Origin: Polyangium spumosum
GTDB lineage: Bacteria > Myxococcota_A > Polyangia > Polyangiales > Polyangiaceae
Reading direction: 5' to 3'
DNA length: 64,000 nucleotides
Assembly (NCBI RefSeq): GCF_009649845.1
Contig: NZ_WJIE01000019.1
Span: forward strand, 1-64,000
Part shown: positions 13,314-18,601 of the stretch, piece after piece
Layout: each line of letters opens with the position of its first letter
Numbering within the stretch: the stretch's first letter is position 1
Translations under genes and position numbers: made by a program
Notes under the pieces: generated by a model
What the model saw: the letters and a program-made list of their open reading frames with translations, nothing else
Told to the model about the DNA's origin: nothing
The model's database searches: none

Positions 13314-15554
13314 TCAGGCGCAGAGCGCCGCGATCTCGGGCTCTCGTTCCATCCTGTGGGGCGCTTCGGCGGCCTCGTCGCCTCCCCGCACGACGGCCTC
13401 GAACGCGCTGCGCAGCTTCGACTTCGTGCGGGCCTCGAGCTGGCGCACGCGCTCGCGTGAGACGCCGAGGCGGCGGCCGAGATCCGCGAGGCTCACCTCG
13501 TCGTCCTCGGAGAGCAGCCGCTCCTCCACGATCAGCCGCTCTCGTGGATCGAGCGCCTTCCACACCCGGCCCACCACGCCGCGCACGAACGCGTCGCGCT
13601 CCGCGCTCGCCGTGAGGTGCTCCGGATCCGACGACGGATCCCGGAGCGTCTCCAGCAGCGTGGGCCCTCCATCCGCGTGCGACTGCGCGTCGAGCGACGC
13701 GTCGCGCGCCCCGACCCTCTGCGACATCGAGCGGATCGAGTCCTCCGTCGTCTGGAACCGGGTCGCGAGCAGCGCGTCGATCGACGCGTCGCCCTCGCCG
13801 AGCTGCATCTCGAGCTTCGCCCGCTCGCGCCGCAGCCGGAAGAACGTCCTCGACACGAGCGCCCCCGTCCCGCCGCCGACGATGCTCCACTCGCGGAGCA
13901 GGTGGTCCACGATATAGGCGCGGATCCAGTAGATCGCGTACGTCTTGAAGCGCAGGTTGCGCGACGGCTCGAAGCGCCGCACCGCCTCCAGGAGGCCGAG
14001 GTTGCCCTCCTCCACGAGGTCCGCGAGCTGCATCCCGTAGCCCCGGTACTGCGAGGCCACCTTCACCACGAACTGCAGGTGGCTCTCCACGAGCGCGTTC
14101 CCTGCCGCATGATCTCCCTCGCGCCGATAACGCCAGGCGAGCTCGAGCTCGGCCTCGCGATCGAGCACCTGATACCGCTGAATGGCCGCGCGATATGCCC
14201 CGAACGGCGACTGCGCCGAGGCCGAGAGCGAGCTCTCGGACCGCGGCCTCTGCAGCGCCGAATCAGGGCGCGGTGCTTTTGGGGCGAGGCCGCTCCTTGG
14301 GCGCACCTCGGAGTCCGCAGGTGGATCCGACGAGGGTGGCGGCTCGGCTGCGCGTTCGTCGCGCGCCGCTGCTCCGAAGACGTGCTCGTTCGGCACGCGT
14401 GTCGCCGGGGCGCCGTCGAGGTGCAAGAGGGCGCGGTAAATAAAGCCGCGCGTCCGCTTCTTGTGACCACCGAGGATCGGCTGGATCGTGTTCGGGCTCG
14501 TCGTGTAGCCGAGCGCCTCGACCTCGCGCGAGATCTGGATCGCGAGCTTGCGCATGGTCATGCCCGGGTGCGTGACCACGTATTTGCGGGCGAGCTCCGC
14601 GATGGGCGCGGCCTTGACCCACGCGAGATCGAGCTCGGCGCCGGCCGGCGGCGGGGCCTTCGTCTCGAGGTCCTGGGACGCGCTCGTCGCCGTGTCTGCG
14701 CGCAGGATCGACTCGATCGCGCTCGACATCGAGCGCCTCACGCGACGCGCGCGGCCGTCGACGAGCTTCTGGACGTGCGGCAGCCCGATCACGATGCCTC
14801 GCTCGGCGAGCCTCTGCTTCAGCAGGATCGCGAGCCTGCGTGACGACGGCTCCTTGCGCTCGATCTTCCAGGCCTTCGCGAGCTCGTGGATCCGGCGCGC
14901 GTTCTCGAAGGCGCGGCCCTCCTGCGCGCCGCGGATCTCGCGCGACATGCTCTCGATCCGCGCCTCGGCGTCGGCCGGCGACGTCACCCCGTCGTGGCAG
15001 AGCAGCGAGAAGAGCGCGTCCTGGATCTCGCGCCGGACGAGGCGCTGCTTGCCGGCGAGGATGCTCTGCAGCGAATCGACGTTGAGGCGGATCCCGATCT
15101 GCTCGAGCTCCTCGCGCAGGCGGAAGGCGAGCGCGCGCTTCGATCGCTCGGGGTGCAGGTAGAGCCAGAGCTGCGCGAGGGGCAACATCCGCTCGCAGGC
15201 GATGTACGTCGGCGTCGTCGCCGCGGACGCGCCGGAGAGCCCGGCCTCGGCGAGGGCCTGCTCGATCGCGGTGACGGCGTCCTCGCCGCCGGCGTCCGCG
15301 ATCACCTCGCGCAGCGCGCGCTCCACCTCGGGCGGCACCGTCGCCACGGAGCCCGAGAGCTGCCGCTTCAGCGTGCGCAGGTGGTAGCGGATCCCGCGCC
15401 CGGCGAGCCGCTCGCGCAGCTCACGCGCGAGGGCCTCTCGCGACAGGCTCGGGCTCCGCTGCAGGTGCAGGGCCGCCGCAGCTCGGAACGCGGCGCCCGG
15501 GATCCGCTCGGGCGTGTCTGCAATCGCCGCCGGCATCGTCACGCTCATCTCCAC
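13314..15554 (-). CDS. RpoH-like sigma factor fused to four N-terminal repeat domains
   Basis: 746 aa. Residues ~450-746 are a complete sigma factor of the RpoH type: FGAYRAAIQRY, LVESHLQFVVKVASQYRGYG, LVEEGNLGLLEAVRRFEP, FKTYAIYWIRAYIVDHLL (region 2), and SLADLGRRLGVSRERVRQLE (region 4.2 helix-turn-helix). Residues 1-380, absent from ordinary sigma factors, hold four degenerate repeats about 96-100 residues apart. Each has the core 'L..RL...G-I/Y-x5-LQxILxG-x4-V/TRRxIxxALxxLL' (core at 54-85, 154-185, 253-284 and 349-379). A Pro/Ser-rich linker (~383-450) joins the halves. GTG 15554 has AGGGAGG six bases upstream; ATG 15548 is the alternative. It presumably directs a stress or developmental regulon; the repeats may be sensory, oligomerising or DNA-binding. 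Confidence 0.9.
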   Translation of the reverse strand: MEMSVTMPAAIADTPERIPGAAFRAAAALHLQRSPSLSREALARELRERLAGRGIRYHLRTLKRQLSGSVATVPPEVERALREVIADAGGEDAVTAIEQALAEAGLSGASAATTPTYIACERMLPLAQLWLYLHPERSKRALAFRLREELEQIGIRLNVDSLQSILAGKQRLVRREIQDALFSLLCHDGVTSPADAEARIESMSREIRGAQEGRAFENARRIHELAKAWKIERKEPSSRRLAILLKQRLAERGIVIGLPHVQKLVDGRARRVRRSMSSAIESILRADTATSASQDLETKAPPPAGAELDLAWVKAAPIAELARKYVVTHPGMTMRKLAIQISREVEALGYTTSPNTIQPILGGHKKRTRGFIYRALLHLDGAPATRVPNEHVFGAAARDERAAEPPPSSDPPADSEVRPRSGLAPKAPRPDSALQRPRSESSLSASAQSPFGAYRAAIQRYQVLDREAELELAWRYRREGDHAAGNALVESHLQFVVKVASQYRGYGMQLADLVEEGNLGLLEAVRRFEPSRNLRFKTYAIYWIRAYIVDHLLREWSIVGGGTGALVSRTFFRLRRERAKLEMQLGEGDASIDALLATRFQTTEDSIRSMSQRVGARDASLDAQSHADGGPTLLETLRDPSSDPEHLTASAERDAFVRGVVGRVWKALDPRERLIVEERLLSEDDEVSLADLGRRLGVSRERVRQLEARTKSKLRSAFEAVVRGGDEAAEAPHRMEREPEIAALCA

Positions 15555-15581: not shown

Positions 15582-15610
15582 ACTAGACAAACATACTCGC
15601 GTCTCGTCAA
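15582..15610 (-). promoter_or_regulatory. Candidate promoter of the repeat-fused sigma gene
   Basis: Minus strand: TTGACG (15605-15610), 17-bp spacer, TCTAGT (15582-15587), about 28 bp before the proposed GTG start. The same spacing and a similar -10 occur at 3154-3182. The remainder of the divergent gap up to 15723 shows no other clear site. Confidence 0.45.
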
Positions 15611-15723
15611 CGTTATACAAAGGCTGAAGGCACGCACCCTCCAGTGTCAAGTCGGAAATTATTAAGATTGCGCAAAGGTTGAACCAAGCTTGTACAACCG
15701 GGAGGTGTGGTAAACGGGACCTC

Positions 15724-17641: not shown

Positions 17642-18601
17642 ATGAAGGCACGGAGCACTCGAACCTGGGCAAAACTCGCGCTCGCCACGGGTTTTGCCCT
17701 CTCCGTCGGCACGGGCTGCGAGCTCGTCGCGTCGGTCGATCGGGAGAAGATCCCGGTCGGCGAAGGCGGCGCGGGCGGCGCCGGTGGCACGGGCGGCCAG
17801 GGCGGCCAAGGCGGCGTGGGTGGCTCCGGCGGTCAGGGCGGTCAGGGCGGTCAGGGCGGCCAAGGCGGCGTGGGTGGCTCCGGCGGCATGGGCGGCGCGG
17901 GTGGCAGCATGGGATCGTGTGTGGATCCCGCGCTCGATTGTCCCGCGCCCTCGGGCCCGTGCGTGGCCGCGATCTGCGACGCGAACCAGAACTGCGCCGA
18001 GGATCCGGCGCCGCAAGGCTCGCCCTCCTCGAACGAGGCGGCGGGCGACTGCAAGCAGCACACGTGCGACGGCGCAGGCGCCGAAGAGGTCACCGACGAG
18101 GCCGCGGGGACGACGTGCGGAGACGCCACGCAGTCCTGCGCGAACGGCGTCGCGAACGGGCCCGACACCTGCGACGGCGCAGGCACGTGCCAGGCGAACG
18201 ACGACGTCGCATGCGCGCCCTACGCGTGCGGCGCGACCGCCTGCAACACGGTCTGCGCGGTGGACGGCGACTGCGCGGCCGACGCGTACTGCGACGGCGG
18301 CATGTGCGCGCCCAAGGCGACGAACGGCGCCGCCTGCGTGATGTCGAACGCCTGTCAGAGCGGCTTCTGCACGGACGGCGTCTGCTGCAACAGCACGTGC
18401 GACGGCCTCTGCCTCGCGTGCAACGTCGCGGGCACGGTGGGCATGTGCACGCCGGTCCCTGCGAACACGCCCGATCCGGCCTGCGGCGCAGGCGAGGCGT
18501 GCAGCGACGCGACGACGTGCCTCAAGATCGCCGGTTCGCAGTGCACGACGAACGACGAGTGCATCTCCAACCAGTGCCTCAACAACGAGTGCCAGCCGTG
18601 A
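17642..18601 (+). CDS. Cys-rich lipoprotein with Gly-repeat linker
   Basis: 319 aa. Signal peptide with lipobox VGTGC (Cys26), a ~45-residue linker made of GGxGGxGG units (GGQGGQGGVGGSGG), then more than 30 cysteines arranged in small modules such as SCVDPALDCPAP, TCDGAGTCQAN, CQSGFCTDGVCCNSTCDGLCLACN. This is the myxobacterial Cys-rich surface lipoprotein type, presumably disulphide-bonded outside the cell. It starts 13 bp after the PEGA protein and ends at a T-tailed hairpin. A second member lies at 36709-37692 and shares the SGFCxDGVCC module. Confidence 0.85.
   Translation: MKARSTRTWAKLALATGFALSVGTGCELVASVDREKIPVGEGGAGGAGGTGGQGGQGGVGGSGGQGGQGGQGGQGGVGGSGGMGGAGGSMGSCVDPALDCPAPSGPCVAAICDANQNCAEDPAPQGSPSSNEAAGDCKQHTCDGAGAEEVTDEAAGTTCGDATQSCANGVANGPDTCDGAGTCQANDDVACAPYACGATACNTVCAVDGDCAADAYCDGGMCAPKATNGAACVMSNACQSGFCTDGVCCNSTCDGLCLACNVAGTVGMCTPVPANTPDPACGAGEACSDATTCLKIAGSQCTTNDECISNQCLNNECQP

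Follow-up and report, generated by a model that had tools for sequence, protein, structure and literature searches.

A sigma factor of Polyangium spumosum carrying four tandem N-terminal repeats, a candidate built-in DNA-binding array

Results

The array sigma gene and its upstream region

The window, that is, the whole stretch of 64,000 nucleotides of the soil myxobacterium Polyangium spumosum that was analysed, carries on its minus strand a gene at 13314..15554 that encodes a protein of 746 aa composed of a four-repeat array, a linker and a sigma-70 body, referred to below as the array sigma. The gene was delimited from its open reading frame, its GTG start codon at 15554 and the GGGAGG located six bases upstream of that codon. 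Orthologues in four other genomes of the genus are full-length and 83-86% identical to the 746-aa protein. The repeats R1, R2, R3 and R4 are encoded at 15288..15488 (residues 23-89), 14988..15188 (residues 123-189), 14691..14891 (residues 222-288) and 14403..14603 (residues 318-384), and are followed by the motif RVPNEHV (14379..14399, residues 386-392), by the linker (14229..14378, residues 393-442), which is of low confidence in the structure model, and by the RpoH-like sigma-70 body (13395..14228, residues 443-720), all on the minus strand. The counterpart of RVPNEHV reads RIPPEHI in an RpoD-type fusion of another genus (genome G135), and the motif is gone in Polyangium sp. 6x1.

Upstream of the gene, on the same strand, lies a motif cluster at 15668..15698 in which GTTGTACAA (15698-15690), TTGGTTCAA (15687-15679) and TTTGCGCAA (15676-15668) succeed each other in 11-bp steps. 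A promoter-proximal motif, TTTGTATAA, is found at 15613..15621 (minus strand), 66 bp from the second upstream site, and a putative promoter core, recognised by eye, occupies 15582..15610 (minus strand) with TTGACG (15610-15605), a spacing of 17 bp and TCTAGT (15587-15582). A terminator-like hairpin separates the upstream cluster from the promoter-proximal motif (15624-15644, minus strand; one found, against a mean of 0.2 in shuffles). The intergenic stretch that separates the array sigma gene from its divergent neighbour is AT-rich; the neighbour matches NAD_binding_7 and is by its sequence a precorrin-2 dehydrogenase. Further along, 17642-18601 of the window encodes a protein that looks secreted and that combines a Cys-rich part with a long stretch rich in Gly (GGxGGxGG); it has no Pfam match at E<=0.001.

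The sigma body is nearest to RpoH

The C-terminal 280 residues are nearest to RpoH (E 2.5e-71) and the sigma match begins at residue 443-452, in line with the first-pass annotation of this DNA, which had let the sigma body start near residue 450. Membership of the sigma-70 family is clear from Pfam, with Sigma70_r2 at 66.5 bits for a cut-off of 24 (residues 488-556) and Sigma70_r4 at 41.6 bits for a cut-off of 24.1 (residues 667-715). The RpoH models themselves are missed, TIGR02392 with 240.5 of 323.1 bits and NF005143 with 238.9 of 241 bits, whereas two paralogues of the same genome (L002 and L003) exceed the NF005143 cut-off with 249.7 and 286.1 bits. Compared with RpoH/sigma-32 as defined by these two models, the array sigma thus shares the nearest body but differs by its length, its four N-terminal repeats and its scores below the cut-offs. 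A repeat-free, second RpoH-like sigma factor above the NF005143 cut-off (L002 on contig C20 of P. spumosum, with L042-L046) is present in all six Polyangium genomes and is the closest counterpart of the array sigma's body.

In a tree of 13 sigma bodies, in which the program flagged long branches, the fusions of Polyangium fall among RpoH-like proteins and that of G135 among the RpoD type, a split with support of 100/100. The body of the P. spumosum array sigma is sister to an RpoH-like paralogue of its own genome, while the G135 body joins a housekeeping RpoD (L005) at 93/93.

Four related repeats precede the sigma body

The repeat cores read GIRYHLRTLKRQLSG at residue 54, GIRLNVDSLQSILAG at 154, GIVIGLPHVQKLVDG at 253 and GYTTSPNTIQPILGG at 349, so that the four related segments are present where they had been claimed. 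R1-R4 align without gaps over 67 residues, all within residues 23-384 and with spacings of 100, 99 and 96. All six repeat pairs score above shuffled sequences (Z 4.3-8.1, 2000 shuffles each), and the best ungapped 35-residue self-matches of 62, 59, 55 and 42 can be compared with a maximum of 46 and a 95% point of 38 in shuffled N-termini (n=200). When each repeat in turn was left out, a profile of the other three scored the missing fourth at 21.4-57.8 bits, compared with 5.6 bits for the best of 300 shuffled N-termini. Two details of the original description had to be adjusted. The repeat is real, but the conserved unit measures 67 residues and the remainder of each domain of about 97 residues is variable linker; and the basic V/TRR motif of the shared core holds for R2-R4 but not for R1, which reads VATVPP instead. 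The array as a whole is basic, with 58 K+R against 40 D+E.

Pairwise dN/dS values amount to 0.17-0.45 for the array and 0.12-0.25 for the sigma body, and judged by these ratios the array is under purifying selection. The five pairs that involve Polyangium sp. 6x1 are placed at the upper end of the array values (0.34-0.45), which may reflect some relaxation of selection on the array in that strain.

Searches with the repeats against Pfam, NCBIfam, PHROGs and PADLOC gave no model at its curated cut-off, and a known curated family was rejected on this ground; none of the sigma-factor domain profiles of Pfam and NCBIfam claims the repeat region. The view that the repeats are unrecognised and foreign to the RpoH family is therefore upheld. 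Among matches below cut-off, PADLOC contributes a single one within the repeats, to a type I specificity subunit (E 0.016), and no Pfam HTH model reaches its gathering score, the best being HTH_31 with 21.2 of 27 bits in the protein of genome G144. HTH_12 matches three of 15 repeats weakly (best 0.0013). Run against the sequences of solved structures, the repeat profile has a designed PPR protein at the top (E 7.5e-5 summed, with 1-2 bits for each repeat), and DEP domains are also among the best (helices H1-H2 of the DEPTOR DEP domain, domain E about 0.01). No Pfam PPR model matches the repeats at its cut-off. A DEP or winged-helix identity was likewise set aside, the weak DEPTOR and HTH_12 matches being retained only as a sign of an HTH-class fold.

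The repeats are predicted to share one helical fold

AlphaFold2 was run on the array alone with seven sequences in the alignment and gave a model with a mean pLDDT of 81.5 in which the four repeats are predicted as one and the same small helical domain, not as unrelated folds. In each repeat the first three predicted helices measure 13-14, 14 and 8-9 residues, and the fourth 10-29 residues. The pTM of 0.36 means that the mutual placing of the repeats is not fixed by the model. A model of the full-length protein reached a pLDDT of 53.9 and was left out of the fold search. Across genera, conservation is highest in the loop after helix 3 (54% and 57% in two comparisons), followed by helix 3 itself (53% and 44%, the latter level with helix 2).

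With Foldseek no match below E 0.59 was obtained in the PDB. The top row is PPR10 (E 0.59, probability 0.09) and is followed by EspR (probability 0.80), POU, HigA and XRE chains among others. A slower structural aligner, applied to the 302 candidates of Foldseek itself, returned 29 chains at Z of at least 5 with a maximum of 6.7. Nearly all of its first 30 rows (Z 4.7-6.7, a size that according to the aligner's own caution can reflect a common arrangement) are by title lambda-repressor-like HTH proteins, including HNF-1A, ClgR, POU2F3, Brn2, EspR, HigA and DdrO, and no PPR chain occurs among its best 50 rows. Viral structure models gave best rows at E 0.015-0.07, CI-type and other repressors included. 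The predicted fold is probably nearest to the lambda-repressor/POU type of HTH, the persuasive point being the uniform list of matches at a middling Z. Each repeat would thus be a small HTH domain of the lambda-repressor/POU-specific type in which the second helix and the turn are lengthened.

The array is found on two sigma classes and without sigma

When the N-terminal 445 residues were used as query, 22 of 59 genomes matched at E<=1, six of them strongly (all Polyangium) and 16 weakly. The frames read at the weak single-sequence matches outside the genus (L023-L026, L028-L030 and L037 not among them) belong to kinases, an HSP90, fatty-acid oxidation proteins, a ketosynthase and others, and were rejected as orthologues; a weak match in the genome of P. 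spumosum itself (C3:743593) is also a kinase. A profile of the repeats found several repeats each in six Polyangium genomes and in G135 and G144 among 183 genomes of the order. At E<=0.1 some match was seen in 63 of the 183, those beyond the eight being single and weak. A profile of the array retrieved the same eight among 108 genomes of the family. In a phylum sample of 377 genomes, 28 matched at E<=0.005, four of them (Polyangium) with four repeats and the others with single weak matches; the best of the single weak matches in the order and phylum scans reached 3.3e-4. A collection of 84,980 species, scanned by way of short conserved peptides so that distant relatives can escape, gave 34 matching stretches. 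Six of these belong to relatives, namely Polyangium sp. 15x6, y55x31 and 6x1, P. fumosum, and the MAGs CSMAG_262 (G135) and bin.255 (G144). In the searches made, the array is thus confined to the Polyangiaceae, where the repeat-profile search and phyletic survey proposed earlier placed it in six Polyangium genomes and two MAGs. Phage, plasmid and viral-contig collections gave no match (tblastn for phages and plasmids), and an origin from phage or plasmid was dropped as a candidate.

Four ARRANGEMENTS of the array are seen: on an RpoH-like sigma, alone with the body lost, on an RpoD-like sigma, and as a free three-repeat protein. The first is that of five Polyangium genomes. In Polyangium sp. 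6x1 (G001) the four repeats are intact and the sigma body is cleanly absent. The loss spans the region from the linker to 28 bp beyond the stop codon, the frame runs antisense into the convergent neighbour, and the best sigma elsewhere in the genome is a 47% paralogue. A TTGACA box that is present upstream in the five other Polyangium genomes has also been lost in 6x1. In G135, R1-R4 and RIPPEHI are followed by a sigma body with regions 1.2, 2, 3 and 4, for which the best NCBIfam model is RpoD (360.9 of 555 bits). In G144, R1-R3 constitute a free protein in an open frame of 325 aa. A UvrA-type ABC gene follows after approximately 50 bp, a gap too short for R4 or a sigma body. Between the genera the repeats match position by position. 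Judged from these genomes, one array is combined with two sigma classes and also exists without sigma, which suggests a portable steering module.

A phased motif lies at the gene's own promoter

Allowing at most one mismatch, TTTGTACAA occurs at two distinct places in the window, both upstream of the array sigma gene. In each of the six species it is more numerous than in dinucleotide-shuffled sequence (0 of 1000 shuffles for four species, with P 0.002 for P. spumosum and 0.033 for 6x1). With two mismatches allowed, as in TTGGTTCAA and TTTGCGCAA, which have two each, TTTGTACAA-like sites are 66 bp apart in all six. The upstream cluster shows a periodicity at lag 11 with P 0.01-0.06 in five species and 0.38 in one, and 11 is the top lag in three of the six. 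A linear array of HTH units lying along one side of the helix would fit steps of 11 bp, although the six sequences are related to each other. The pattern TTTGTNNAAYGTT has 12 matches across the six genomes, eight of them upstream of the array gene, compared with three for the reversed control, and a paired-site pattern matches nowhere but upstream of the array gene, in two of the six genomes. Polyangium sp. 6x1 retains TTTGTTCAA in the same phase despite its lost sigma body, with weaker sites upstream. The motif overlaps positions resembling -10/-35 elements. A consensus promoter scan gave no promoter-like site at the array sigma gene, and neither G135 nor G144 has the motif within one mismatch ahead of its array gene.

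Single-site and tandem patterns also match away from the array gene. For the tandem pattern TTGTNNANNNTTTGTNNANNG the six genomes give 10 matches and the control none. Three of the ten are at the array gene and seven elsewhere: five touch the start of one lipoprotein-like gene, one is upstream of a redoxin gene of P. spumosum and one is unassigned. A wider regulon, as sought with the motif patterns, was not adopted: the paired sites are limited to the array gene and the single and tandem matches are scattered elsewhere. At the redoxin gene (Pfam Redoxin), CTTGTACAAAG, an element akin to the motif at the array gene, is positioned 56 bases before the start codon in all six Polyangium orthologues (L159-L164), in each behind an invariant TTGAC (P 0.007-0.018 each). 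Because this placement coincides in part with a -10-like position, CTTGTACAAAG may be read by the sigma part. Divergently oriented beyond CTTGTACAAAG at the redoxin locus of P. spumosum (G000:C5:687715) are two Hsp20-like genes, identified by eye. At the lipoprotein-like gene, in five Polyangium genomes (L137, L139, L140, L141, L144), the tandem pattern abuts the start codon inside an inverted repeat whose arms covary in an operator-like manner (TGTCTAC/GTAGACA in three species, TGTACAC/GTGTACA in another). A further locus (L136, G005:C209:40870) carries GTTGTACATGGTTTGTACAACGTT, which closely resembles the upstream cluster of the array gene; it is present in one genome, apparently intergenic and with no clear gene nearby.

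Discussion

The question left by the first-pass annotation was whether the repeats bind RNA, DNA or a ligand or act as a built-in anti-sigma module. DNA binding is favoured here, by the predicted HTH-like fold and by the specific, conserved promoter motif, and a self-regulated sigma factor is plausible from the sequence data. With moderate confidence we propose a sigma factor with a built-in, sequence-specific and activator-like DNA-binding array that probably controls itself. This reading starts from the repeats and their conservation, from the occurrence of the array on two sigma clades and without sigma, from the motif at the gene's own promoter and from the fold predicted to be common to the repeats. 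Four HTH units in a row would be joined by a flexible linker to the RpoH-like sigma body, and the array would bind phased TTTGTACAA-like units that form an operator next to the promoter and thereby bring or hold the attached holoenzyme there, which would combine activator and sigma in one polypeptide. The likely targets would be the gene's own promoter, leading to autoregulation, and perhaps that of the redoxin gene. We infer the binding of DNA, the array rather than the sigma part as reader of the motif, the recruitment, and the sign of the regulation. To be set against binding by the array are the middling Z values, a Foldseek list that is headed by a PPR protein and has no PDB match below E 0.59, the PPR and DEP profile matches, the absence of a Pfam HTH match at cut-off and a motif that sigma itself could read. 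The seven of ten tandem matches away from the array gene, the modest 11-bp periodicity and the lack of the motif upstream in G135 count against it as well.

More tentatively, the array may be a portable unit of four HTHs that reads successive operator steps of 11 bp, one turn each, and that has become attached to two sigma classes in the Polyangiaceae. The fusions would then read promoters twice, with the array and with regions 2 and 4, under feedback on their own genes, and the body-less form of 6x1 would be a pure repressor or competitor. We regard this extended version as possible but doubtful.

The motif might instead be part of a promoter read by the sigma body, with the array serving another purpose, such as contacting proteins or oligomerising by way of its HTH-derived domains. 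TTGAC-like -35 elements beside the motif at the promoters of both the array gene and the redoxin gene would fit such a role, TTGTCTAG and TTGTACAA might represent two versions of a single -10 region, and the array genes of G135 and G144 are without the motif upstream. Yet the consensus scan found no standard promoter at the array gene, and 6x1 keeps TTTGTTCAA in phase after losing its sigma body; this last is a mild objection, since the upstream sites of 6x1 are weaker and its TTGACA box is gone. On balance we consider a promoter motif read by sigma alone unlikely.

Less probable still is a role of the array as a built-in anti-sigma or autoinhibitory element, folded back onto the sigma body until a signal such as a ligand, proteolysis or a nucleic acid releases that body. 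Among ECF sigma factors, fusions to regulatory or anti-sigma domains are known (PMC8999054), and no separate anti-sigma gene was recognised by Pfam among the nine neighbouring ORFs. The modularity of the array speaks most against this alternative, as its presence on two sigma classes and on its own, with three or four repeats, is hard to square with an inhibitor fitted to one body. An RNA-binding, PPR-like helical-repeat array that links the sigma factor to a signal in RNA form is very improbable: PPR proteins head both the Foldseek rows and the profile matches among solved structures, but a unit of four helices in 67 residues plus linker is unlike the PPR hairpin of approximately 35 residues, and the leading rows of the slower aligner are HTH proteins.

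Several known systems can be compared with a sigma factor that carries its own DNA-binding array. Lambda-repressor-like and POU-specific HTH proteins (EspR, ClgR, HNF-1, POU2F3, HigA) are alike in predicted helix order and are the nearest structural matches; the array differs in having four such units in tandem on a sigma factor, in its longer helix 2 and turn, and in lacking a Pfam HTH match at cut-off. The ECF fusions (PMC8999054) likewise have a regulatory part appended in one chain, whereas the part added here resembles a tandem DNA-binding array and the body is of the RpoH or RpoD type, not ECF. MzaA (NF041931, PDLC02203), the product of mzaA of the MZA anti-phage system and a sigma factor according to PMC9523054, also has a long N-terminal part, its profile covering 726 positions. 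The match to NF041931 is confined to the sigma part, with 104.3 bits here and 270.3 in G135 for a cut-off of 800, and relatives of MzaA were absent at E<=1e-130 from 235 genomes. The nine ORFs neighbouring the array sigma gene, checked for mzaBCDE by Pfam, belong to other Pfam families or to none. Sigma factors have been modelled as derived from an ancestor with four HTHs (PMC4802759), which likewise places four HTH units in an initiation factor; in that model the HTHs are sigma itself, while here an extra array stands ahead of a sigma body with which no sequence kinship was detected. One Sorangium is credited with 109 sigma factors (PMC3696898). None of the papers found by our searches of the open-licence PMC literature describes a sigma factor with HTH units arrayed in tandem.

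The sequences described above provide a natural comparison set, in which the array precedes either an RpoH-like or an RpoD-like body, stands without a body or occurs as a three-repeat protein. Steering of a sigma factor by a fused HTH array is thereby directly testable, which would be useful for engineered sigma factors. In bacteria the choice of promoter is normally divided between the sigma factor and separate activators. If our reading is true, a sigma factor with a covalently attached tandem DNA-binding array would unite both roles, with a specificity set by a swappable module.
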